Positions 29,587 through 40,972 of a DNA stretch of 64,000 bases are shown in pieces. The position numbers and the translations under genes are program-made. The notes beneath the pieces are model-generated. The model ran no database searches. It was not told the DNA's origin and was given only the letters and a program-made list of their open reading frames with translations. The stretch comes from Brachybacterium squillarum M-6-3 (lineage in GTDB: Bacteria > Actinomycetota > Actinomycetes > Actinomycetales > Dermabacteraceae). Location of the stretch: contig NZ_AGBX01000001.1 of the NCBI RefSeq assembly GCF_000225825.1, positions 1,178,001-1,242,000 of the forward strand, given 5' to 3'. Numbering within the stretch: the stretch's first letter is position 1; the number at the start of each line of letters is the position of its first letter.

Positions 29587-30006
29587 TCAGGGGTGGGGGT
29601 GCCCTGCACGTCCGTCGCCGGTGGGGTGCTCGACGCCGGGCAGGTGCCCGGAGCCGAGGTCGTGCAGCAGCTCGTGCACCAGGGGATCGGCCAGTTCGTA
29701 GCGCACCTCCCGGCCGTGGCGCACCGCGCGCACCCAGCCCGCCTCCCGCAGCAGTGCGAGCGCGTGGGAGGTGGTGGACTCCTGGGCGCCGGTGGCGCGG
29801 GCCAGGTCGGAGCTGCGCACCCCGGGGTGCGCGTGCAGGCAGAACAGCAGTCGCAGCCGGAGCCGGTCCGCCAGCAGCGCCATCCGTGCCGCCAGCGCTT
29901 CGAAGCCCTCGGCGTTCGCGAGCAGTCCCCGCAGCTCCGCCACCAGGTGCTCATCGGCGCGGTCCCGCGCGGCCGTGTGCACCGGGTGCGGGGAGGGCTC
30001 GCTCAT
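29587..30006 (-). CDS. ArsR-family regulator with a His-rich tail
   Basis: Start ATG 30006 gives 139 residues; the longer frame adds unrelated sequence. The winged helix is clear: MALLADRLRLRLLFCLHAHP, VRSSDLARATGAQESTTSHA and LALLREAGWVRAVRHGREVR. The last 25 residues contain five histidines (HLPGVEHPTGDGRAGHPHP), which could bind a metal. It lies upstream of and in line with the FecCD-type transporter genes, so it is probably their metal-responsive repressor. A perfect inverted repeat lies 40 bases upstream of its start. Confidence 0.83.
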   Translation of the reverse strand: MSEPSPHPVHTAARDRADEHLVAELRGLLANAEGFEALAARMALLADRLRLRLLFCLHAHPGVRSSDLARATGAQESTTSHALALLREAGWVRAVRHGREVRYELADPLVHELLHDLGSGHLPGVEHPTGDGRAGHPHP

Positions 30007-30045
30007 GGCCTCACTGTACGAGGACCACGCGGCCGACGACCGGAG

Positions 30046-30069
30046 GATCCCGGTCGTTGTTCCGGGATC
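30046..30069. promoter_or_regulatory. inverted repeat upstream of the ArsR gene
   Basis: GATCCCGG (30046-30053) and CCGGGATC (30062-30069) are perfect 8-base arms around an AT-richer 8-base spacer. Located in the only stretch between ArsR and uvrA2, it is a good ArsR operator candidate, and could alternatively form a hairpin for the uvrA2 transcript that ends here. Confidence 0.5.
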
Positions 30070-30171
30070 AGGGACGACAGTGGAATAGCGACATCGATCT
30101 TCCGTCATCGGACGCACGGGGGAACAGTGGGAGTGCCGTTCCCTCGTGTCGCGGGGGAGTGGAGGAGCCGG

Positions 30172-32829
30172 TCAGCTCGCCAGAGCGGCGGCGAGGTAGG
30201 GGGCGGTGGCGCCCGGCCCGGCCGCGACCTCGGCGGGGGTGCCGGCGGCGACGATCCGCCCGCCGTCCTCGCCCGCGCCGGGGCCCAGGTCGATCACGTG
30301 GTCGGCGACGGCCACCACCCGCATGTCCAGCTCGACGGCGACCACCGTGTTCCCGGCGTCGACCAGGGTCTGCAGGTGCTCCACCAGACGGTCGGCATCG
30401 GCGCAGTGCAGTCCCGAGGTGGGCTCGTCCAGCACGTACAGGGTGTCGCCGCGCTGGGCGCGCTGCAGCTCGCTGGCCAGCTTCACCCGCTGCGCCTCGC
30501 CGCCGGAGAGCTCGGTGGCGGGCTGGCCGAGCCGCAGGTAGCCCAGGCCCACGTCCTCCAGGGCGGCGAGCGAGCGCAGGATCTCCTCCTCGCCGGTGAA
30601 GAACTCCCGCGCCTCCTCGACGCTCATCGCGAGGATGTCGGCGATGGTGCGCTCCCGCCAGGTGATCTCGAGGGTCTCGGCCAGGTAGCGGGTGCCGTGG
30701 CAGTCGGGGCACTCGGTGTAGACGCTGGGCAGGAACAGCAGCTCCACCATCACCGAGCCCTCGCCCTCGCAGGTGGGGCAGCGCCCGCCGGCGACATTGA
30801 AGGAGAAGCGGCCGGGCTTGTAGCCACGGGCCCGCGCCTCGGGGGTCTCGGCGAAGCGTCGGCGCACCCGGTCGAACATGCCGGTGTAGGTGGCGACGTT
30901 GGAGCGCGGGGTGCGGCCGATGGGGCGCTGGTCGATCGCGACCACGCGGCCGATGCCCGGCGCCTCGCCCTCGACGGTGCCCTCCAGGCGGCGCGGCGCC
31001 TCCTCCAGCAGCATCGACTCCTCGTCCTCGGGGGCGTCGTCCAGCGCGACCGGCCGGCCCAGGTGCTCGCCGAGCACGGCCGGCAGGGCCTGGCTGACCA
31101 GGCTGGACTTCCCGGAGCCGGAGACGCCCGTGACCACCGTGAGCGATCCCAGGGGCAGGTCGAGGTCGAGGCCGTGCACCGTGTTGCGGGTGATGCCGCG
31201 CAGGGCCAGGTGTCCGCGCGGGCGCCGCGGCTGCCGTGAGGCGAGACCGCTGGTGCCCTGCAGGTAGCCGCGGGTCACGGACTCCTCCACCGCGTCCAGG
31301 CCCTCGGGCGGACCGCTGTAGAGCACGTGCCCGCCGCGCTCCCCGGCGCCGGGGCCGATGTCCACCAGCCAGTCCGCGTGGCGCATCACCTCGACGGCGT
31401 GCTCCACCACGAACAGGGAGTTGCCGGCGGCGCGCAGCCCGTCCAGCACCCCCAGCAGGGCGGTCCGGTCCTGCGGGTGCAGGCCCGCGGAGGGCTCGTC
31501 CAGCACGTAGACCACGCCGAACAGGTCGGAGGTGAGCTGGGTGGCCAGGCGCAGCCGCTGCAGCTCGCCGCCGGAGAGGGTGGGGGTGGTGCGGGCCAGC
31601 GACAGGTAGCCGAGGCCCAGCTCGAGGATCGGGCGCAGCCGCTCCCGCAGCTCCCCGGCGAGCCGGGCGGCCGCCGCCTGCTTCTCCGCCGAGCGGTTCG
31701 GGGTGCGGCGCACGTCGGGGGCGGCCGCATGGGCGGAGCCGCCCGCGGCCACCCGCTCCTCGACTGCCCGGCGGCGGGCGTCCGCATCGAGCCCACCCCC
31801 GTCGGCGCTCTCGCCGGTGCCCTCGCTCCCGGCCACCAGCTCGCCCAGCAGCGCATCGAGCTCGTGCAGCGGCAGGGCGGAGAGGTCCGCGATGTCCCGA
31901 CCGGCCACCGTCACCTTCAGCGCCTCCGGGATCAGCCGCTTGCCGTGGCAGACGGGGCAGGCGGTCACCGCCATGAACTGGGCGGCGCGCCGCTTCATGG
32001 CGGCGCTGCCGGAGTGGGCGAAGGTGTCCAGCACGTTCCGCCGCGCCCCCACGAAGGTGCCGCGGTAGGTGGGCTCCGCGCCCACCGCCTCCGCCTCCCG
32101 CGCCTCGGCCAGCGACAGCCGCGAGTGCACGGCGACGTTCGGCTTCTCCTGCGTGTACAGGATCCAGTCGCGGTGCTCGCGCGGCAGGTCACGCCAGGGC
32201 ACGTCGACGTCGTAGCCGAGCGCGACGAGGGTGTCGCGCAGCTGGTGGCCGTGCCAGGCCGTCGGCCAGGAGGCGATGGCGCGCTCCCGGATGGTCAGGG
32301 AGTCGTCGGGGACCATCAGCTCCTCGGGCACGTCGTAGACGCGGCCGATGCCGTGGCACTCGGGGCAGGCCCCCTGCACCGTGTTGGCCGAGAAGTGCTC
32401 GGCGTACAGCATCGGCTGGCCCTCGGGGTAATCCCCGGCGCGGGAGTACAGCATCCGCACCAGCGAGGAGAGCGTCGTGATCGAGCCGACCGAGGAGCGC
32501 GCGCTGCGTCCGCCGCGCTGCTGCTGCAGCGCCACCGCCGGCGGCATCCCGGTGATCGCCTCGACCTCCGGCACGCCGGCCTGGTCGATCAGCCGCCGCG
32601 CGTAGGGCGCGACCGACTCCAGGTAGCGGCGCTGGGACTCGGCGAACAGGGTGCCGAAGGCCAGGGAGGACTTCCCGGAGCCGGAGACGCCGGTGAACAC
32701 CACCAGCGCATCGCGGGGCACGTCGAGGTCCACGTCCCGCAGGTTGTGCTGGCGGGCACCGCGCACCTGCACCACCGCGGCGGGGTCGGTCAGGGGCGCG
32801 GCAGGGGAGGTCGGGGCGGGATCTGGCAT
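30172..32829 (-). CDS. UvrA-like ABC excinuclease subunit (UvrA2 class)
   Basis: The 885-residue protein has two ABC modules: Walker A GVSGSGKSSLAFGTLFAESQ near residue 47 and GVSGSGKSSLVSQALPAVLG in the second half, signatures LSGGELQRLRLATQL and LSGGEAQRVKLASELQ, and three zinc-type CxxC sets (CPECHGIGR, CPVCHGKR, CPTCEGEG with CPDCHGTR). Length and spacing are below those of canonical UvrA (about 950), consistent with UvrA2, which lacks the UvrB-binding domain and is linked to drug or DNA-damage tolerance. It is transcribed alone, divergently from cstA. Whether it takes part in excision repair is unknown. Confidence 0.85.
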   Translation of the reverse strand: MPDPAPTSPAAPLTDPAAVVQVRGARQHNLRDVDLDVPRDALVVFTGVSGSGKSSLAFGTLFAESQRRYLESVAPYARRLIDQAGVPEVEAITGMPPAVALQQQRGGRSARSSVGSITTLSSLVRMLYSRAGDYPEGQPMLYAEHFSANTVQGACPECHGIGRVYDVPEELMVPDDSLTIRERAIASWPTAWHGHQLRDTLVALGYDVDVPWRDLPREHRDWILYTQEKPNVAVHSRLSLAEAREAEAVGAEPTYRGTFVGARRNVLDTFAHSGSAAMKRRAAQFMAVTACPVCHGKRLIPEALKVTVAGRDIADLSALPLHELDALLGELVAGSEGTGESADGGGLDADARRRAVEERVAAGGSAHAAAPDVRRTPNRSAEKQAAAARLAGELRERLRPILELGLGYLSLARTTPTLSGGELQRLRLATQLTSDLFGVVYVLDEPSAGLHPQDRTALLGVLDGLRAAGNSLFVVEHAVEVMRHADWLVDIGPGAGERGGHVLYSGPPEGLDAVEESVTRGYLQGTSGLASRQPRRPRGHLALRGITRNTVHGLDLDLPLGSLTVVTGVSGSGKSSLVSQALPAVLGEHLGRPVALDDAPEDEESMLLEEAPRRLEGTVEGEAPGIGRVVAIDQRPIGRTPRSNVATYTGMFDRVRRRFAETPEARARGYKPGRFSFNVAGGRCPTCEGEGSVMVELLFLPSVYTECPDCHGTRYLAETLEITWRERTIADILAMSVEEAREFFTGEEEILRSLAALEDVGLGYLRLGQPATELSGGEAQRVKLASELQRAQRGDTLYVLDEPTSGLHCADADRLVEHLQTLVDAGNTVVAVELDMRVVAVADHVIDLGPGAGEDGGRIVAAGTPAEVAAGPGATAPYLAAALAS

Positions 32830-33015
32830 GACGGCGAGCCTAGCAACGGTCCCCGACGATCCGCGGTGAGCCGGCGGCGGGCACGTGGTTCGCGGGTGCT
32901 CTCCGCTACCGTGAGGGCACGCGCTCGACGGGGACGCACGCAGCTCCCCGCTTCCCAGGCCGTGGCAGAGCTGCCCGGCCCCGGGCGCTGCCCGTCACCG
33001 AAGGAGCCGCTCCTC
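32830..33015. promoter_or_regulatory. divergent promoter region of uvrA2 and cstA
   Basis: This 186-base gap holds the promoters of both genes. The AAGGAG site of cstA is at 33001-33006. I did not find a strong inverted repeat or a leader that looks like a known riboswitch. Confidence 0.35.
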
Positions 33016-34710
33016 ATGAACTCCCTGATCCTCGCCGTCGTCGGCATCACGCTGATGATCGCGGGCTACCTCCTCTACTCCCGCTTCCTGTCCCGTCGCG
33101 TCTACCGGCTCGACGCCGGCTTCCGCACGCCCTCCCACGAGCTGCAGGACGGCGTCGACTTCGTCCCCACCAACAAGTACGTGCTGTGGGGGCACCACTT
33201 CACCTCCGTCGCCGGCGCCGCCCCCATCGTCGGGCCCGCCGTCGCCGTGATCTGGGGCTGGCTGCCCGCCTTCCTCTGGGTCACCCTCGGCACCGTCTTC
33301 TTCGCCGGGATGCACGACCTGGGCGCCCTGTGGGCCTCCGTGCGCAACCGCGGCCAGTCCATCGGCACCCTGTCCGCGCGCTACATCGGCAAGCGCGGCT
33401 CCCGGTTGTTCCTGGTGGTCATCTTCCTGCTGCTGCTCATGGTCAACGCCGCCTTCGCGGTGGTGATCTCCGGGCTGCTGGTCTCCACCCCCACTGCGGT
33501 GCTGCCCACCTGGGGCGCCCTGGTGGTCGCGCTGCTGGTCGGGCAGGCCATCTACCGGCTGAAGTGGAGCCTGCCGGTGGTCTCCGTGCTCGGCGTCGCC
33601 GCCCTGTACGGCCTGATCCTGCTGGGCGACCGCTTCCCGATCGTGCTGCCCGAGACGATCCTCGGCCTGTCCTCCAGCGCGGTGTGGATCCTGATCCTGT
33701 TCGTCTACGCGGGCATCGCCTCCACCCTGCCGGTGTGGGTGCTGCTGCAGCCGCGCGACTACATCAACGGCCTGCAGCTGTTCATCGGCCTCGCCCTGCT
33801 GTACGGCTCGGTGCTGCTGTTCCGCCCCGAGATCGTCGCCCCCGCCGTGAACACGAACCTGCCTGAGGGCACGCCCGGCCTGCTGCCGCTGCTGTTCGTG
33901 ACCATCGCCTGCGGCGCCATCTCCGGCTTCCACGGCATCGTCTCCTCCGGCACCTCCTCCAAGCAGCTCGACCAGGAGACCGACGCCCGCTTCGTGGGCT
34001 ACTTCGGCGCGGTCGGCGAGGGCCTGCTGGCGCTCGGCGCGATCATCGCCACCACCGCCGGCTTCCGCACCCTGGCCGACTGGGAGGCCGTGTACTCCGC
34101 CTTCAACGAGGGCGGCGTGGCCGCGTTCGTCACCGGCGGCGGCTCCATCCTCAACGCCGGCCTCGGCATCCCCACCTCGCTCTCGGCCACCATCCTCGCG
34201 ACGATGGCGGTGCTGTTCGCCGCCACCACGATGGACACCGGCGTGCGCCTGCAGCGCTTCGTGGTGCAGGAGATCGGGCAGATCGTGGGCCTGCGCCTGG
34301 GCACCGTGGCCGCCACCCTGATCGTGCTGGCCGTGTGCCTGGGCCTCTCCTTCGGGGCGGGGGCCGACGGCTCCGGCGGCATGGTGATCTGGCCGCTGTT
34401 CGGCACCACCAACCAGCTGCTGGCGGGCCTGACCCTGTCGATCCTCGCGGTGATGCTGCTGCGCAAGCGCCGCCCGGTGCTGCCGGTCGTGCTGCCGCTG
34501 CTGTTCATCCTGGTGGTCAGCGTGTACGCCCTGCTGATCCAGCTCGGCGGCTTCTTCGCCGAGGGCAACTGGCTGCTGCTCGGCATGGACGTGGTGATCC
34601 TGGTGGCCGCCGTCTGGGTGATCGTCGAGTCCGTGGTGGCGCTCGGCAGGGCCCGCCGCGAGGCCCCCGAGGAGGAGGACGCGCCGGCCCCGACGGGCGG
34701 TCGCCGGTGA
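33016..34710 (+). CDS. cstA: carbon starvation protein A (pyruvate/peptide transporter)
   Basis: The 564-residue protein has about 15 membrane segments and the CstA hallmarks: GYLLYSRFLSRRVYRLDAGF, DFVPTNKYVLWGHHFTSVAG then APIVGPAVAVIWGWLPAFLW, and HGIVSSGTSSKQLDQETDAR. CstA-family proteins take up pyruvate and peptides during starvation; pyruvate uptake is experimentally known for relatives such as E. coli BtsT and CstA. The gene has a good AAGGAG site. Its stop overlaps the GTG of the next small gene, which overlaps an ArsA-like ATPase gene, so the three form one translationally coupled unit. Confidence 0.92.
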   Translation: MNSLILAVVGITLMIAGYLLYSRFLSRRVYRLDAGFRTPSHELQDGVDFVPTNKYVLWGHHFTSVAGAAPIVGPAVAVIWGWLPAFLWVTLGTVFFAGMHDLGALWASVRNRGQSIGTLSARYIGKRGSRLFLVVIFLLLLMVNAAFAVVISGLLVSTPTAVLPTWGALVVALLVGQAIYRLKWSLPVVSVLGVAALYGLILLGDRFPIVLPETILGLSSSAVWILILFVYAGIASTLPVWVLLQPRDYINGLQLFIGLALLYGSVLLFRPEIVAPAVNTNLPEGTPGLLPLLFVTIACGAISGFHGIVSSGTSSKQLDQETDARFVGYFGAVGEGLLALGAIIATTAGFRTLADWEAVYSAFNEGGVAAFVTGGGSILNAGLGIPTSLSATILATMAVLFAATTMDTGVRLQRFVVQEIGQIVGLRLGTVAATLIVLAVCLGLSFGAGADGSGGMVIWPLFGTTNQLLAGLTLSILAVMLLRKRRPVLPVVLPLLFILVVSVYALLIQLGGFFAEGNWLLLGMDVVILVAAVWVIVESVVALGRARREAPEEEDAPAPTGGRR

Positions 34711-34970
34711 GCGCGGGCGGGCGCTGGGCGGCGCTGCGGGAGGGGATGCACGAGTTCTACGTCGCCCCCTACCGCCGCACCTTCGCCCGCGCCCGCCGCG
34801 AGCAGGAGGACCTGTTCCGCCTGCTGGTGATGGGGGAGATGCTCGGGGTTCCCAGCCCGGCCGCCGCGCTGACCCCGGAGCTGCTGCCGCTGATGCTCGA
34901 CGAGTTCCATGACTGGCACCGGCGGATGGGCATGGAGCGCTCCCCGCTGGAAGGCGTCGGATGCTGCTGA
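34707..34970 (+). CDS. small Cys-Cys-terminated protein (cory-CC-star type)
   Basis: A GTG at 34707 overlaps the cstA stop (GTGA). The 87-residue protein is helical and basic at the start (EGMHEFYVAPYRRTFARARR), continues EQEDLFRLLVMGEMLGVPSP, then ELLPLMLDEFHDWHRRMGME, and ends exactly with Cys-Cys. This matches the small actinobacterial family known as cory-CC-star, named for its terminal Cys-Cys, which co-occurs with an ArsA-like ATPase, as here. It has no membrane segment, though the central hydrophobic helix could touch a membrane. A role as adaptor for CstA, or as a metal- or client-binding partner of the ATPase, is plausible but unproven. Confidence 0.78.
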   Translation: MSAGGRWAALREGMHEFYVAPYRRTFARARREQEDLFRLLVMGEMLGVPSPAAALTPELLPLMLDEFHDWHRRMGMERSPLEGVGCC

Positions 34971-36085
34971 CCGACGGGCCCGATGCCGGCACCCGCGACG
35001 GGGACTCCGTGCCCGTGCTGCCGCGTCTGGCCGCCGAGAAGCAGGTGCTGTTCCTCGGCGGCAAGGGCGGGGTCGGCAAGACGACCCTGGCCTCTGCCGC
35101 CGCCTACGGGGCCGCCGCCGCGGGTCGTGACGTGCTGGTGATCTCCACCGACCCGGCGCACAACCTGGGCCACCTGTGGGAGCGGGAGGTGGGCGACCGC
35201 CGCACCGTGCTCGCCGCCGACCTGCCCGGCCGTCTGGAGGGCGTGGAGATCGACCCGGAGGCGACCACGGCGCGGCACCTGGAGCAGGTGGGCCGGACCA
35301 TGCGCCGCCTCAGCCCCGAGCACCTGGCCGGGCAGATCGACCGCCACCTGGCCCTGGTGCGCGACACCCCCGGCACCCACGAGGCCGCCGTGCTGGAGCG
35401 GATGACGGAGCTCGTCGAGCAGGGCCGGGCCGAGTTCGACCTGGTGGTGCTGGACACCGCCCCCACCGGGCACACCGCCCGCCTGCTGGCCCTGCCGGAG
35501 ATCATGACCGCCTGGATGGAGGGTCTGCTGGCCACCCGCGACCGCGCCGCGGGCTTCGAGGAGGCCCGCCGGTCCTTCGACGACGCCGGGGAGCGGGGCG
35601 GTTGGCTCCCGGGCCGGCGCGGCCGCCGGGACACCCGCGCCGAGGGCGACCTGGGCGCCTCGGTCCTCGGCACCCGCCTCGCCGAGGCGGCCCCCGCCCC
35701 GCGCGCCGACCGCGACGAGGAGATCCGGGCGGTGCTGCTGCGCCGCCGCGACCGCCTGGCGGGCCTCCGCGCCCTGCTCACCGACCCCGCCGCCTGCTCC
35801 TTCGCGATCGTGCTGGCCGCCGAACGGCTGCCGGTGCGCGAGAGCATCGCCCTGCACCGGGAGCTCGGGGAGCTGGGCGTGGACGTCGGCGGCCTCGTGG
35901 TCAACAAGCGCTCCCCGGGCGACCGCGGCGAGTTCCTGGCCGCGCGCCGCGCCGTCGAGGCCGAGCACCTCGCCGAGCTGCGGCGCGCCCTGCCCGAGGT
36001 GCCGCTGCAGCAGGTGGCCCTCGGAGCGCGGGACGTCGTCGGCGAGACCGACGTGGCGGCGCTGTCGCGCACCCTCGACGTCTGA
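34961..36085 (+). CDS. ArsA/GET3-like P-loop ATPase
   Basis: The 374-residue protein starts 10 bases before the Cys-Cys gene ends. It has the deviant Walker A G33-G-K-G-G-V-G-K40-T-T (signature lysine K35), switch I DPAHNLGHLWEREVGDRR, and switch II VVLDTAPTGHTARLLALPEI, all typical of ArsA/GET3 ATPases. The A-loop near ESIALHRELGELGVDVGGLV and VNKRSPGD is present. The arsenite cysteines of ArsA are not apparent, and neither is the CxxC that GET3 uses for zinc-mediated dimerisation. Its partner is probably the small Cys-Cys protein, with CstA as possible client; this is inference from coupling. Confidence 0.88.
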   Translation: MLLTDGPDAGTRDGDSVPVLPRLAAEKQVLFLGGKGGVGKTTLASAAAYGAAAAGRDVLVISTDPAHNLGHLWEREVGDRRTVLAADLPGRLEGVEIDPEATTARHLEQVGRTMRRLSPEHLAGQIDRHLALVRDTPGTHEAAVLERMTELVEQGRAEFDLVVLDTAPTGHTARLLALPEIMTAWMEGLLATRDRAAGFEEARRSFDDAGERGGWLPGRRGRRDTRAEGDLGASVLGTRLAEAAPAPRADRDEEIRAVLLRRRDRLAGLRALLTDPAACSFAIVLAAERLPVRESIALHRELGELGVDVGGLVVNKRSPGDRGEFLAARRAVEAEHLAELRRALPEVPLQQVALGARDVVGETDVAALSRTLDV

Positions 36086-36089
36086 TCCG

Positions 36090-37529
36090 TCAGTCCCGCA
36101 GCGGACTGATCCGGTCGATGCCGTCGCGCTCGGCGCGCTCGCCGTCGAGGACGACGTTGGCGGCCAGCGGGATCTGGTGGGAGGCGCTCTCCAGGATGTG
36201 CATGAGGTAGCCGCCGGTGTTGGGCAGGGCGATCGCATCGCCCACGGCCACGCCGCGCGGGAAGGCGATGCGGCGCCGCAGGATCAGCTCCGCCTCGATG
36301 CAGTAGGCGCCCACCAGGAAGGCCTCGCCCGGCGCGGACGGCTCCCCGCCCAGCGGCACCAGCAGCGGGTCCACCAGGAAGTCGTCGGAGGTGGAGCGGC
36401 ACTGGGTGCGGTTCATCTCCAGCCCCACCAGACCTACGCCGTCGCTGGTCGTGCTGCGCTGGATGACCCGGGCCAGGGTGAGACCGCAGCCGTCGAGCAG
36501 GGAGCGGCCGGGCTCGCAGCGCAGCTGCAGGCCGCGTCGGCGGAGGGCCTCGGCGGCGCTCTGCCCGGGGGTGAGCTCGGTGTCGAGCATCCGCGCCAGC
36601 CAGGCGCCGCGGACCAGCTCCTGGTGGTACGGGTAGACCTGCCGCAGCGGCTCGCCGCGCCAGGTCACCGGTTCGTCGGGTCTCTGGGCGTCGTGCGCCT
36701 CCCAGAAGGTCTCCCAGTCCGTCCCGCTCTCCAGGTAGGACATGGGGAGGCCGCCGCCGATGTCCACGAAGCGGGGGCGGTGGCCCTGCGCATGCAGGGC
36801 GTCCACCAGCTCCACCGCTTCGCCGAGCGCCTGCACGCGAGCGTCCGGGTCGTAGCCGTGCAGGTGGAAGTGCACGCCGTCGATGCGCAGCGGTCCGGCG
36901 GGGTCCTGCCGCCCGGCCCAGTCGCGCCAGGTGTCCCGGCGCTCGCCGAAGCGGGTGGGGACGACGGGACCGCCCGGGGTCGGGGCCAGGCGCAGCGCCA
37001 CCGGGACGGGCTCCGCGGCCGCGGCGGCGAGCGGCGCCAGCGCGGCGACCTCGTCCAGGGTGTCCAGCACCAGGGTCGCCCGCGCGTCCACCGCCCGGCG
37101 CAGCAGGGGCTCCGGTTTGATCGCCGAGGTGACCACGACGTCCTCGGGCGGGACGCCGAGGTCCAGCACCTGCTGGAGCTCCCGCTCGCTGCCGACGTCG
37201 ATGCCGTGACCGCCGCGGTGCGCGGCGCGGACCAGGCCGAGGGTCTTGTTGGCCTTGCGGGCCACGAACACCCGGGCGTCGACGTCCCGGGCGTTCGCCG
37301 CGGCGAGCAGCTCCTCGGCGTGGCGCGCCAGCGGCGAGAAGTCGTGGACGTTCACGGGGGAGCCGTGCTCGGCCAGCAGGTCCCGGCAGCGCTCCGCATC
37401 GCCCAGCAGCGCGGTCATCCAGGGCTCGAGGCGGGCGGGCAGCGGCGGCAGGCCGTGGGCGGCGGCGCGCAGCTCCGCGGTGGGCGAGGGTCCCGGGGCG
37501 TCCGGGCCCTTCGTGGGGGCGGCGGTCAT
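36090..37529 (-). CDS. fold-type III PLP enzyme (decarboxylase-like, Y4yA-type)
   Basis: The 479-residue protein has the alanine-racemase/DapDC fold: the PLP lysine K92 in VARKANKTLGLVRAAHRGGH, GIDVGSERELQQVLDLGVPP, HFHLHGYDP, FVDIGGGLPMSYL and a C-terminal domain with EMNRTQCRSTSDDFLVDPLL and FLVGAYCIEAELILRRR. It resembles diaminopimelate or ornithine decarboxylases but with unusual spacing, as in the uncharacterised Y4yA group. Its ATG overlaps the flavoprotein stop by four bases. With the SbnA-like enzyme upstream it likely acts on an amino acid derivative in a small biosynthetic pathway. Confidence 0.82.
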   Translation of the reverse strand: MTAAPTKGPDAPGPSPTAELRAAAHGLPPLPARLEPWMTALLGDAERCRDLLAEHGSPVNVHDFSPLARHAEELLAAANARDVDARVFVARKANKTLGLVRAAHRGGHGIDVGSERELQQVLDLGVPPEDVVVTSAIKPEPLLRRAVDARATLVLDTLDEVAALAPLAAAAAEPVPVALRLAPTPGGPVVPTRFGERRDTWRDWAGRQDPAGPLRIDGVHFHLHGYDPDARVQALGEAVELVDALHAQGHRPRFVDIGGGLPMSYLESGTDWETFWEAHDAQRPDEPVTWRGEPLRQVYPYHQELVRGAWLARMLDTELTPGQSAAEALRRRGLQLRCEPGRSLLDGCGLTLARVIQRSTTSDGVGLVGLEMNRTQCRSTSDDFLVDPLLVPLGGEPSAPGEAFLVGAYCIEAELILRRRIAFPRGVAVGDAIALPNTGGYLMHILESASHQIPLAANVVLDGERAERDGIDRISPLRD

Positions 37530-39226
37530 CCGGCGGTCTCTCCGATCGGGGAGGGAAGGGTCGACAGGCGGCGGGCGAGGCGCTCGGCCCAGGCCTCCGG
37601 CTCGGGGTGCAGGTGACGGTTCAGGGTGTCGTGGCCGAACGCCTCGTCCTCGGCGGCGCGCCCGATGACGGCCAGGCCCTCGAGGCGGTGGCCGTAGGCG
37701 TCCACGGGCGTGCCGTCGCCGGCGGTGCGGACGCCGCGCCGTCCCGGGCGCACGTGCAGGCCGGCGTCGGCCAGCAGGGAGCCCAGCAGGGGGTCGTTCA
37801 CCGCGATCGCGCCCGGCGGGGGCAGCACCGCGTCCAGCACCACGTCGGCCGGTGCGGAGCCCTCGGGGATGCCGTGCAGACCGTCGCCGGTGATCCGCAC
37901 CCCGGCGTCGAGCCAGGAGAGGTCCAGCGCACCGGAGTCCAGCATCGCCAGCAGCCGGCGCGCGGTGTCCAGCGGGGGGCCGAAGGCGAGGCGCTCCAGG
38001 CGGGCGGCGTCGCCGCGGAAGCGCAGCATCGCCTCCTCGGGGGCGTCGGTGCCGCGCAGACCGCGCATCACGGTGGGCAGCAGGGCCGACCAGGTACGGC
38101 CGAGAGCCCAGGCAGGGCCGGGCGCCCGGCGGCCCTCGGCGACGGCGACGCCGCGGCGCAGCATCCCGGCCGCGCGTCCGGGGCCCCGGGGCAGGTCCGG
38201 CTCGCAGCCGTGGGCGAGCACGTGCGCGACCGCCTCCCGCCCCGCCGTGGGGGCGGTCCCGGCATCCGCGGCGGCGAGCACGGCGGTGGCCGTGTCCAGC
38301 ACCGCCGCGTGGACCGTCGCCGGTCCGTCCTCCGCCCCGCGCAGCGCCGCGGCGAGGTCGTCGGCGCCCCGCTCCAGCACGGCGCGGACCTCCTCGGGCA
38401 GGGGCGTGCGGGGGTCGGGCTTGGCGTCCAGCAGCAGCCCCTCGCGGGAGGTCGGCAGCAGCACCGCGGGCTCCGCGGAGGCGCGCTCGTGCACCAGGCC
38501 GGAGCCGTCGGGCGCGGGGCGGAAGCGCCCGCCGCGGCCCTCGGTGAGGGCGAGCGCGGCATCCAGGAAGGTCAGCGCCGCCCCGCGCAGCGCCACCCGG
38601 GCCCCGGGGGGAACCGCCTGGGCGGAGAGCATCGCCGCGACCGGCAGCACTCCCTCCCGCAGCGGGATCGTCGACCGCCAGGCGGGGGCGAGGGCGCCGG
38701 TGTGCCCGCTCGCGTGGCCGGTCACCACCAGCACCTCCGCGAAGGGGCCGAGCACCTGCTCGCGGCCGTCGCCGTCGGGCAGCACCCGCACCCGGGTCTC
38801 GCCCTCGCGGCCCCGGTCCACGCCGACGGCGCGGCCCCGGTGGAGCGTCAGCGGCACCAGCGCGCGGAGCGCCGCCTCCAGTCGCTGCCACCGTTCGTGC
38901 AGGTAGCGGCCGACCAGGGCGCGCGGCGGGTACGGCTCTCCGGCGGCCTCGGGGTCCGCGCGGCGCACCCACTCCGCGAAGGAGGGCCCGTCGCCGGTGG
39001 CGGGGGCGTCGAGGATCCGGGCGTCGACGTTCAGCCGCAGGCAGTCGGGCTGGTCCAGGGCGTAGCCGGACCCGGTGCCGGGATGCTCGCCGGACTCGAT
39101 CACGGTCACCCGCAGCCCGGTGGGAGGGGCGTCAGCCAGGCGCACCGCGAGGGCCTCCAGGCTGAACAGCGCGCGCGGCCCGGCGCCGATCACGGCCAGC
39201 TCCAGGGCGGCGGCGGGCTCAGGCAC
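37526..39226 (-). CDS. FAD/NAD(P)-binding oxidoreductase of the two-PLP-enzyme cluster
   Basis: GTG 39226 overlaps the end of the cysteine-synthase-like gene by eight bases and is the natural start; the product has 566 residues. It starts with a dinucleotide fold, LAVIGAGPRALFSLEALAVR, then VTVIESGEHPGTGSGYALDQ and a second nucleotide-type strand VLVVTGHASGH. The family resembles the HpyO/FAD-NAD(P)-binding group related to L-lysine/L-ornithine N-hydroxylases, so it may hydroxylate or oxidise an amino group. It overlaps the downstream decarboxylase gene by four bases. Confidence 0.8.
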   Translation of the reverse strand: MPEPAAALELAVIGAGPRALFSLEALAVRLADAPPTGLRVTVIESGEHPGTGSGYALDQPDCLRLNVDARILDAPATGDGPSFAEWVRRADPEAAGEPYPPRALVGRYLHERWQRLEAALRALVPLTLHRGRAVGVDRGREGETRVRVLPDGDGREQVLGPFAEVLVVTGHASGHTGALAPAWRSTIPLREGVLPVAAMLSAQAVPPGARVALRGAALTFLDAALALTEGRGGRFRPAPDGSGLVHERASAEPAVLLPTSREGLLLDAKPDPRTPLPEEVRAVLERGADDLAAALRGAEDGPATVHAAVLDTATAVLAAADAGTAPTAGREAVAHVLAHGCEPDLPRGPGRAAGMLRRGVAVAEGRRAPGPAWALGRTWSALLPTVMRGLRGTDAPEEAMLRFRGDAARLERLAFGPPLDTARRLLAMLDSGALDLSWLDAGVRITGDGLHGIPEGSAPADVVLDAVLPPPGAIAVNDPLLGSLLADAGLHVRPGRRGVRTAGDGTPVDAYGHRLEGLAVIGRAAEDEAFGHDTLNRHLHPEPEAWAERLARRLSTLPSPIGETAG

Positions 39227-40322
39227 GGCTCGCCGCCTCCTGCAGTGCGGCGGTCGCGGCGGTGAGCCCCGCGGTGTCGACCTCGAGGGTGGCCGCCACC
39301 CAGGCGTCGTCGTAGACGGTCTCCAGGTAGGGCGCGCCGCCGTCGTGCACCACGAACACCACGCGGGAACCCTCCGGAAGATCCGCGACCGTGCGGCCGA
39401 GGGCGGCGACGATGCCGCCGGTGGAGGCGCCCGCGAGGATGCCCTCGCGACGGGCGAGCAGCCGTGCCCCCACCACGCAGTCCCGCCCGCTGACCCGGTG
39501 CACAGCATCGGGCTCGACGGTGCGCGAGTGGTCGGTGACCACGCCGGCGCCGAGACCCGGCAGGGGGCGGGGCGCCGCGGTGCCGCCGAACAGCACGCTG
39601 CCCTCGGCGTCCACGGCGAGCAGCCGGGTGTCCATGCGGTGCGCGCGCAGGTAGGCGGCGCAGCCGGCGAGGGTGCCGACGGTGCTGGTGGCGGCGGCGA
39701 GCAGGTCGAGCCGATGGTCCAGGGCCTCGGCGATCTCCCGCATGGTGCCGTCGCGGTGGGCGCCGGGATTGGCGGGATTGCCGTACTGGTGGAGGTTCAC
39801 GGCGCCCGGGATCTCCACCAGCAGCCGCTGCACCCGCTGCAGGCGCGCGGTGAGCAGGTCGCCGGTGTCCGGGTCGGGCTCGGAGACCAGGTCGACCTCC
39901 CCGCCGAGGGCCTCGATCGTGCGCACGGTGGTGGCGTTGGTGCGGGCGTCGACCACACAGACGAAGCGCAGTCCGTGGGCGGTGCAGACGCGGGCCAGGG
40001 CCACCCCCAGGTTCCCGGAGCTGGACTCGACGACGGTCCCGCCGGGGCGGAGCCGACCGGTGGCGAGGGCGTCGCGCACCATCGCCAGGGCCGGACGGTC
40101 CTTGGTCGAGCCGCCGGGGTTCACCGATTCGAGCTTGGCGAGGACCTCCACGCCGCTGTCGGGGAACAGATGCTGCAGCCGGACCAGAGGGGTGTTCCCG
40201 ACCGCCGCGGAGACCCCGTCGACCACCGGGGGAGGGGCGCTCGCCGGGATGCTGTCGACATGTCCGGCATCGGTGCCGGGAACGGGGTGGACACAGGGGG
40301 ATTCGGCGTGAGCCGGGCGCAT
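39219..40322 (-). CDS. cysteine-synthase-like PLP enzyme (SbnA-type)
   Basis: The 367-residue protein (ATG 40322; no strong ribosome site) is a fold-type II PLP enzyme: K74 in NPGGSTKDRPALAMV forms the Schiff base, and VVESSSGNLGVALARVCTAH is the asparagine loop. The rest (NLHQYGNPANPGAHRDGTMR, TSTVGTLAGCAAYLRAH, GASTGGIVAALGR) resembles 2,3-diaminopropionate synthases such as SbnA more than housekeeping CysK. It would make a beta-substituted alanine that the next two enzymes process. First gene of a three-gene cluster with overlapping frames. Confidence 0.82.
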   Translation of the reverse strand: MRPAHAESPCVHPVPGTDAGHVDSIPASAPPPVVDGVSAAVGNTPLVRLQHLFPDSGVEVLAKLESVNPGGSTKDRPALAMVRDALATGRLRPGGTVVESSSGNLGVALARVCTAHGLRFVCVVDARTNATTVRTIEALGGEVDLVSEPDPDTGDLLTARLQRVQRLLVEIPGAVNLHQYGNPANPGAHRDGTMREIAEALDHRLDLLAAATSTVGTLAGCAAYLRAHRMDTRLLAVDAEGSVLFGGTAAPRPLPGLGAGVVTDHSRTVEPDAVHRVSGRDCVVGARLLARREGILAGASTGGIVAALGRTVADLPEGSRVVFVVHDGGAPYLETVYDDAWVAATLEVDTAGLTAATAALQEAASRA

Positions 40323-40358
40323 GGTCACGGAGGTCAACGTACGGGACGAACCCCGGAA

Positions 40359-40374
40359 CGCCCCGATCGGGGCG
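40359..40374. promoter_or_regulatory. perfect palindrome upstream of the PLP cluster
   Basis: CGCCCCGATCGGGGCG is a 16-base uninterrupted palindrome 37 bases upstream of the SbnA-like gene, in the 143-base divergent gap with the pyridoxamine-oxidase-like gene. It could be an operator for both directions. GC-rich palindromes arise easily by chance here. Confidence 0.35.
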
Positions 40375-40465
40375 GCAACGGGACCGGGCGGTCGGGAAGC
40401 TGGGTCGCCTCCCGGGGCGGGGGCATAGGGTCGCCCGCACCTGACCGCGAGAGGAAGGCCCGACC

Positions 40466-40972
40466 ATGGCACAGGACGACACCGACCAGCCGGAGCTCAC
40501 CCAGCAGGACGTCGCCGAGCGGCTGCGCTCCGCCGGCCCGGTCATGCTGACCACCGTGGGTGGGGACGGCAAGCTGCTCGCCCACCCGATGACCATCCAG
40601 GAGGTCACCGACGACGTCGACATCTGGTTCTTCGTCGGGCTGTCCGGGGACCAGGCCGGCGCCCTGCGCGGCGACGGCGGAGGCAGCGCCGTGAACATCG
40701 CCGTCTCCGAGGCCGGCTCCTGGCTCTCCGTGGCCGGCAGCGCCGCGTTCGTCGAGGACCGGGCGACGGTGGAGCGGCTCTGGAACGACGCGGCCACGGC
40801 CTACTTCCCCGGCGGCATCGACGAACCGGACCTCGGGCTGCTGCGGGTGGACGGCGAGTCCGCCCAGTTCTGGGGGCTGCCCGGCGGGAAGGCCTCCGCG
40901 CTCGCCCAGATGGTCAAGCACCGCGTCACCGGCTCCCGACCGGCCGGCGGCAGCGCCACCACCGAGCTGTGA
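40466..40972 (+). CDS. pyridoxamine 5'-phosphate oxidase-like protein (general stress protein 26 type)
   Basis: The 168-residue protein is a split beta-barrel flavin-binding protein: GPVMLTTVGGDGKLLAHPMT, then DIWFFVGLSGDQAGALRGDG, VNIAVSEAGSWLSVAGSAAF and WNDAATAYFPGGIDEPDLGL. This order matches the GSP26/YdaG group, whose members bind FMN or F420-like flavins; the reaction is not known. ATG with an AGAGGAAGG site upstream. Its stop overlaps the GTG of the next small gene. Confidence 0.83.
   Translation: MAQDDTDQPELTQQDVAERLRSAGPVMLTTVGGDGKLLAHPMTIQEVTDDVDIWFFVGLSGDQAGALRGDGGGSAVNIAVSEAGSWLSVAGSAAFVEDRATVERLWNDAATAYFPGGIDEPDLGLLRVDGESAQFWGLPGGKASALAQMVKHRVTGSRPAGGSATTEL

Follow-up and report, generated by a model that had tools for sequence, protein, structure and literature searches.

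The window analyzed here is a stretch of 64,000 nucleotides from Brachybacterium squillarum M-6-3 (contig NZ_AGBX01000001.1, positions 1,178,001 to 1,242,000 of the forward strand), and the system in question is a three-gene operon encoding a CstA-family transporter, a small cory-CC-star protein with two cysteines at its C terminus, and an ArsA/GET3/TRC40-type ATPase. Its features are as follows, with positions counted from the start of the window.

33016-34710, plus strand: cstA, encoding a CstA-family transporter of the short form, 564 amino acids (PF02554)
34707-34970, plus strand: cory-CC-star gene, 87 amino acids, GTG start, product ending Gly-Cys-Cys (NF041419)
34961-36085, plus strand: gene for a single-domain ArsA/GET3/TRC40-type ATPase, 374 amino acids, Walker A motif GGKGGVGKTT (TIGR00345)
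34962-34967, plus strand: the two terminal cysteine codons of the small gene, TGC TGC, within the ATGCTGCTGA overlap
32830-33015, unstranded: 186-base gap between a divergent UvrA-like gene and cstA, the presumed promoter region of the operon

The cstA and small genes overlap by four bases (GTGA, 34707-34710), the small gene and the ATPase gene by ten (ATGCTGCTGA, 34961-34970), and GAAGGAG precedes the ATG of cstA within the 186-base gap. Gene order, both overlaps and the 87-residue Cys-Cys protein had been described in an earlier note on this DNA, and coordinates and translations confirmed them in every detail. The small protein scores 118 bits against NF041419 (curated cut-off 80) over model positions 2-80 of 80 and carries the C-terminal Cys-Cys pair of cory-CC-star proteins, and the ATPase scores 191.4 bits against TIGR00345 (GET3/ArsA/TRC40; cut-off 135) and 184.2 bits against PF02374 (cut-off 24.3). 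The transporter scores 439.7 bits against PF02554 (Pfam gathering cut-off 27) and 206.2 bits against NF011590, the equivalog model for the pyruvate/proton symporter CstA, whose cut-off is 1188; the substrate of that symporter is therefore not to be carried over to the CstA of the window.

With cstA, a gene for a protein of about 90 residues, a single-domain ArsA homolog and no ars genes, the locus agrees with the definition of the cstA-cstX-arsA operon published by Castillo and Saier in 2010 (PMC2963123; this paper, like PMC5847655, PMC4607533 and PMC13188914 below, is cited from the part of its text available to us), and it counts as one more operon of this type. In that account, CstX is proposed to couple CstA to the ATPase, 24 of 26 CstA-ArsA associations include a small CstX, the trees co-evolve, and a CstY of about 210 residues is described in five archaea. 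The small protein of the window is most likely CstX, as judged from its place, its size and the taxa shared: Stutzerimonas loci carry cory-CC-star between cstA and the ATPase gene, and ATPases of Pseudomonas stutzeri and Brevibacterium linens stand in the table of PMC2963123. The operon itself is thus not new. What appears to be new, on comparison of sequences, is that one carrier family has unrelated dithiol partners. We found no mention of the Cys-Cys end, of YbdD or of the third dithiol protein described below in the available part of PMC2963123; no paper on cory-CC-star was found in the open-access literature, and none in that literature (subscription journals and preprints not included), as far as its text was available, was found to join the dithiol ends of CstA partners.

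The association between the small protein and CstA was counted in genomes, in some of which a limited number of candidates was scored (up to 14, 20 or 4), making absences less firm than presences. Within the host's own family (47 genomes), cory-CC-star occurs in 15, in all 15 beside a short CstA by coordinates, and PF04328, the YbdD family, occurs above its cut-off in 14, each time beside a long CstA; CstA is present in 30 of these genomes, once as a contig-edge fragment (G016), and no genome has both small families. One more PF04328 match (G035; 21.3 bits, under the cut-off) lies in a genome without CstA. In a sample of 296 genomes from the phylum, cory-CC-star was found in 18 (G108 and 17 that exceed the cut-off), YbdD in 29 and CstA in 75; CstA is present in 18/18 and 29/29 of the genomes with the two small proteins (naive probabilities, uncorrected for relatedness, of 3e-12 and 4e-20, respectively). 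The partner gene lies beside cstA in 17 of the 18 cory-CC-star genomes, in some with a third gene between, and in 27 of the 29 YbdD genomes; the non-adjacent cases are on other contigs (G154 for cory-CC-star; G074 and G230 for YbdD). G217 carries two CstA copies, one next to cory-CC-star and the other next to YbdD, and no CstA copy was seen with both adjacent. The count of 18 excludes a 23-bit match in a genome without CstA (G286), taken as chance, and sets apart the weaker matches in G080, G083, G225 and G259 as a duplicated branch; with any match to the small protein counted, CstA is present in 22 of 23 such genomes.

Among 84,980 species genomes scanned, 341 matches related to the small protein were obtained; the best 80 were used, a choice biased to near relatives, and the nearest named loci are from Brachybacterium. 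Addition of three plasmid records (Pseudochrobactrum, Paracoccus and Cytobacillus) gave 83 loci from Actinomycetota, Alpha- and Gammaproteobacteria and Bacillota. Upstream of the small gene 72 of these have a CstA match; an ATPase match lies directly downstream in 82 (the exception, L196, being at a contig end), as also in 26/26 further loci, and the small protein ends in Cys-Cys in 83/83. The co-occurrence of this Cys-Cys family with ArsA-type ATPases was thereby borne out, and the neighborhood counts that the earlier note had proposed as the means of refuting a linkage to cstA instead upheld it (15/15 in the family; CstA in 18/18 in the phylum). The three genes very probably form one functional unit.

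A simpler explanation would be that the genes are neighbors by history only and that Cys-Cys is a by-product of the ATPase start that overlaps it (ATGCTGCTGA), and a potential start codon does stand at the ten-base overlap position in 93 of 109 loci (the 83 loci, that is 80 genome loci and the three plasmid records, together with the 26 further ones, some being one place taken twice). However, all 109 small genes end in Cys-Cys and have Cys codons at both positions, among them all 16 that lack ATG or GTG at the overlap position, and 26 use at least one TGT codon in the pair. Because these genes keep the pair without that start or with the other codon, Cys-Cys is not a by-product of the overlap, and this codon check rules out the artefact. 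As the pair of genes also accompanies one CstA clade across phyla, even where unlinked, the history-only explanation is largely refuted and we regard it as very improbable.

The unlinked cases come from 11 gammaproteobacterial genomes in which the small gene and the ATPase gene form a locus without an adjacent CstA gene (L169, L176, L185, L186, L190, L191 and L196-L199 among them; the ATPase gene is present in all but L196, where the contig ends). Genes resembling smpB and ratA lie upstream in 10 of the 11, as judged by a motif check and by reading the proteins, and the region itself reads as an smpB-ratA-rnfH region. CstA is present elsewhere in all 11 genomes, and in 10 it is a short CstA that groups in the tree with those accompanied by cory-CC-star. 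In one such order (115 genomes), cory-CC-star occurs in 8 genomes and a short CstA in 10; the overlap is 8/8 and 8/10 (naive probability 8e-11), with the genes adjacent in 4 of the 8 and on another contig in the other 4. A further 8 genomes of that order have a long CstA and 8 have only a divergent CstA, and none of these has cory-CC-star. The detached pairs and these counts point to dependence on one CstA clade that survives loss of linkage, and the earlier proposal of CstA as the likely client holds both from the strict linkage in the family and phylum samples and from the matching CstA that is usually present where the pair is detached. Proteins of about 560-600 residues are encoded beside unlinked CstA genes (L255:7846-9648, L256:6773-8455 and L257:6893-8683), with weak AhpC/TSA-type matches of 34, 22 and 23 bits (cut-off 26) that could reflect chance or a further connection to thiols.

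The kind of partner tracks the CstA phylogeny. In a quick tree of 100 CstA sequences (those under 430 residues dropped, and the 83 loci L121-L203 first thinned to 27), cory-CC-star requires 5 changes, compared with 33.6 in shuffles, and YbdD 2, compared with 20.9; the CstA of the window sits in the clade that accompanies cory-CC-star. Partner labels were set by hand, among them L074 as cory-CC-star (on another contig of its genome), L209 as YbdD though its contig stops inside cstA, and L096 as none though its contig stops right after cstA.

The small protein occupies the position that YbdD has next to E. coli CstA. E. coli has two such operons, cstA-ybdD and btsT-yjiX-yjiA, and both YbdD and YjiX end in Cys-Cys. 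Pyruvate uptake in E. coli falls to 20% of wild type without ybdD, compared with 13% without cstA, and the cstA ybdD double mutant shows no significant difference from either single mutant; why CstA cannot work without the 65-residue YbdD is left open in that study (PMC5847655). Common ancestry of cory-CC-star and the YbdD/YjiX family (PF04328) went undetected: hhalign aligns the two cysteine residues of the final Cys-Cys only, at a probability of 1.4. Even so, the small protein is rather more probably than otherwise the counterpart of YbdD, and on our reading of the sequences two unrelated small proteins would provide two CstA clades with one and the same dithiol. Should YbdD be replaced in another clade of CstA by a different protein that shares its last two residues, the dithiol is likely to be the working part.

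AlphaFold2 predicts helices at residues 3-46 and 51-74 of the small protein (mean pLDDT 82.5), followed by a 13-residue tail without predicted secondary structure (pLDDT 63 over the last block), that is, a two-helix hairpin with an unstructured Cys-Cys tail. Of 50 small proteins, a single one has a clear transmembrane stretch (19-residue Kyte-Doolittle mean of at least 1.6), and hydropathy thus gives no support to a transmembrane CstX. No Pfam family matched the small protein at E values up to 1, the single fold match (E 2.9) is meaningless, and sequence searches of solved structures matched none for CstA, YbdD or the small protein.

In an alignment of 43 sequences the ATPase retains its nucleotide-binding residues, with the Walker A lysines K35 and K40 at the positions given in the earlier note and invariant. 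It has one cysteine, and no cysteine column is conserved among the 43; ArsA-type and Get3-type thiol chemistry is therefore unlikely there. In its own genome PF02374 has three other places, all weak matches (24.6 to 41.4 bits). The AlphaFold2 model (mean pLDDT 87.0) is closest among solved structures to M. thermautotrophicus TRC40 (Z 30.8, 290 residues, r.m.s.d. 2.4 Å), with ArsA somewhat below (Z 27.4); a predicted fold of this kind would say nothing about cargo. In a side observation, one locus (L063:3157-4047) has, in opposite orientation, a gene for a YjiA-like G3E GTPase adjoining the ArsA-type ATPase gene of its cory-CC-star operon.

That the nearest solved folds are archaeal and eukaryotic Get3/TRC40 would suit an ATPase acting as a Get3-like chaperone that inserts or assembles CstA, with the small protein as adaptor. 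Yet Get3, the tail-anchor factor, has a zinc-binding CxxC at its dimer interface, which this ATPase lacks, and CstA is not known as a tail-anchored protein; moreover, the long-form CstAs examined have no such ATPase alongside, and the small proteins have no clear transmembrane stretch. We consider this role decidedly unlikely. Castillo and Saier proposed that the ATPase energizes transport directly, in the way that ArsA serves ArsB, and that the small protein couples it to CstA; operon structure and tree congruence (PMC2963123) and the retained nucleotide-binding residues are consistent with it. Against it, neither E. coli CstA nor the long CstAs L101-L120 have a match to the ATPase of the window beside them, the ATPase is single-domain and below the cut-off of the arsenical-pump family, and the CstA fold can evidently work as a secondary carrier, since BtsT is annotated as a pyruvate:H+ symporter. 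Energization of this kind is accordingly improbable, in our estimate.

A third dithiol protein accompanies part of the same transporter family. In G229, G282 and G304, genomes without a cory-CC-star match, the gene downstream of a short CstA encodes a protein of some 130 residues in which the cysteine pair is internal and reads GCCG; members of the family lie at L093:4217-4645, L094:4305-4718, L095:4505-4951 and in L221-L234. The family is present in at least 14 of the 296 phylum genomes, a lower bound because only 14 candidates per genome were scored, and goes with short CstA in all of them; 13 are adjacent to it on the same contig, and in G154 contig ends separate the two. The cory-CC-star and ATPase genes follow the third-family gene in 11 of the 14 genomes, and the cysteine pair is present in 13/13 sequences with an intact start (L234, at a contig start and with poor sequence over the cysteine region, was left out). 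No Pfam or NCBIfam model covers the family at a credible score, and solved chains gave chance-level matches only; the order of strands and helices, as we read it from the sequence rather than from any tool, looks thioredoxin-like.

One member of this family is a candidate new selenoprotein, on a single record. In Cytobacillus spongiae (NZ_CP089998.1, L203:4609-4980) the gene is annotated solely from an internal start; the reading upstream of it begins with an ATG behind an apparently good ribosome site and has UGA at the place of the relatives' first cysteine, followed by Cys. The 41 bases starting just after the UGA may form an RNA hairpin (z -2.8; 3 of 200 shuffles as good), and two stretches that include the UGA give z -2.1 and -1.8 (7 and 11 of 200 shuffles as good); this signal is modest, because the same place in Cys-Cys relatives gives z 0.7 (L093) and -1.1 (L095). 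Rfam returned for the Cytobacillus stretch three matches, all far under their cut-offs and on the opposite strand. A SelA search over all plasmids gave 310 records; Cytobacillus was not among the 40 listed, and the search covered its plasmid record alone.

The third protein also bears on the possibility that a metal or metalloid is passed along by the dithiol proteins together with the ATPase, in the style of ArsD/ArsA or of a G3E metallochaperone, either to load a metal that CstA needs or to export one through it. Vicinal cysteines bind soft metals, the ATPase is of ArsA type, a 21-column stretch around the conserved VDGKVLFSG of the third protein lines up with ArsD, and E. coli YjiA matches the CobW and ZigA models, though under their cut-offs. 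The alignment with ArsD, however, has an hhalign probability of only 4.7, and a metal- or metalloid-handling role of the ATPase is not supported: its one cysteine is not conserved, it has one domain, it scores 114.5 bits against the 650 of TIGR04291 (the two-domain arsenical pump-driving ATPase ArsA), and no ars genes are among the immediate neighbors of the operon, which are the UvrA-like and diaminopimelate-decarboxylase-like genes. Forms of YbdD that end in Cys-Sec suit redox better (PMC4607533). Metal delivery is for these reasons an unlikely account. The dicysteine itself may bind metal or act in redox, and the Cys-Sec forms tilt this toward redox by analogy without deciding it; that the dithiol acts by redox is put forward tentatively and with some doubt.

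As the best explanation, we propose a Cys-Cys-tail version of a CstA transport unit in which the dithiol of an accessory subunit controls CstA and the ATPase cycles that subunit, a scheme on which our confidence is evenly balanced. CstA would be the carrier of the operon-encoded unit, and the small protein a cytosolic accessory subunit without which the carrier is inactive, as YbdD and YjiX would be for the clade of E. coli CstA. The working part would be the vicinal dithiol on its flexible arm, most likely as a thiol (redox) switch or relay acting on the carrier, and a dimer of the Get3/ArsA-type ATPase would bind the small protein and use ATP to place it on CstA or remove it, so that the carrier would be switched, rather than driven, by ATP. 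The gene unit, the co-occurrence with a clade and the Cys-Cys end are read from sequence; the equivalence with YbdD, the dimer, the task of the ATPase, the redox chemistry and the substrate go beyond it. Beyond the operon, CstA carriers as a class may possibly be controlled by a dithiol or selenol-thiol pair from unrelated proteins (YbdD/YjiX, CstX/cory-CC-star and the third family), with repeated recruitment of the same chemistry and, in several branches, the gain of a regulatory NTPase of SIMIBI type (ArsA/Get3 or G3E), although we lean somewhat against so broad a statement.

Several observations weigh against this scheme or restrict it. With a limited number of candidates scored per genome, none of the partner families is seen in 22 of the 75 CstA genomes of the phylum sample, and CstA as a fold thus seems not to need a partner; several of these are contig-edge fragments, with 16 of the 22 coming from three families (f20, f27 and f41), two from f7 (G142 and G196, with long CstAs and no YbdD beside them) and four being partial or at contig edges (G187, G209, G316 and G280). 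No Cys-Cys partner was seen beside seven partnerless CstAs (L096-L100, L119 and L120), and the idea that partnerless CstAs are confined to anaerobes was given up, Natrinema and Azospirillum CstAs standing alone too. Two short-CstA genomes, G421 and G406, have no cory-CC-star match and no recognized partner adjoining cstA, and in the eleventh detached genome, G348, the sole CstA seen is a long one accompanied by YbdD. The sole cysteine conserved in 144/144 aligned CstA sequences, C299 in the window (C335 in E. coli), is present with or without a partner and is hence no evidence for a thiol relay. In G080, G083, G225 and G259 the small-protein gene is present twice, both copies lacking Cys-Cys and lying next to CstA or elsewhere on its contig, with two ATPases in three of these genomes and a contig end in the fourth; cysteines are therefore not needed for company with the ATPase. 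In some YbdD relatives beside long CstA (L110, L112, L113 and L116) the end is Cys-Pro, so that the dithiol is common rather than universal. The loci of the duplicated branch (L078, L079, L080 and L081) show a divergent CstA followed by two Cys-Cys-free relatives of cory-CC-star and, on contigs that extend far enough, a pair of ArsA-type ATPases, and duplication of the ATPase along with the small protein points to direct pairing.

The genes around the operon, outside the three described, are the following.

30172-32829, minus strand: UvrA-family gene, divergent from cstA (TIGR00630, 852 bits)
29587-30117, minus strand: winged-helix regulator (MarR-type, 29.7 bits; ArsR-type, 21.7 bits, slightly below the cut-off)
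within 36093-40472, minus strand: SbnA-type 2,3-diaminopropionate synthase (360.5 bits, cut-off 349.95)
within 36093-40472, minus strand: diaminopimelate-decarboxylase-like gene (88.7 bits, under its cut-off)

The regulator lies beyond the UvrA-like gene and outside the cstA operon, and the minus-strand genes at 36093-40472, which converge on the ATPase gene, seem to belong to a siderophore cluster.

CstA proteins transport pyruvate and perhaps peptides, and the apparent recurrence of unrelated Cys-pair partners among CstA-type transporters makes the pair itself worth testing. If the proposal is true, a set of ArsA/Get3 ATPases that lack a known function would acquire a defined client, and the unusual selenocysteine at the C terminus of DUF466 would be explained. 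Of the first reading of this locus, the single unit and CstA as its likely client are supported, and the novelty and a metal or metalloid role of the ATPase are not.

Among known systems, CstA-YbdD and BtsT-YjiX-YjiA of E. coli resemble the window in having a carrier and a small Cys-Cys-ended protein, with a P-loop NTPase as third component in the BtsT operon; in Rahnella, too, the genes for carrier, small protein and P-loop NTPase follow one another in this order, the small protein being of PF04328 and ending in Cys-Cys. These differ from the window in that YjiA is a G3E-type GTPase rather than an ArsA/Get3 ATPase and that E. coli CstA belongs to the long clade. The DUF466/KCU-star selenoproteins of some Campylobacterales share the C-terminal vicinal pair, as Cys-Sec in place of Cys-Cys (PMC4607533, PMC13188914), and a redox role was suggested for the YbdD family (PMC4607533); neither 'CstA' nor 'carbon starvation' occurs in the main text of PMC4607533. 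E. coli YbdD matches NF033934 at 70 bits, below its cut-off of 85, and the 109 cory-CC-star genes examined differ in coding for cysteine at both positions. The ArsA pump ATPase and Get3/TRC40 share fold and Walker A with the ATPase of the window, which is single-domain and has no conserved cysteine. The Castillo and Saier operon (PMC2963123) has the same three genes, with a CstX of about 90 residues, a single-domain ArsA of about 330 residues (374 in the window) and no ars genes; CstX is called there a protein with a single transmembrane segment, whereas hydropathy here gives no clear one.

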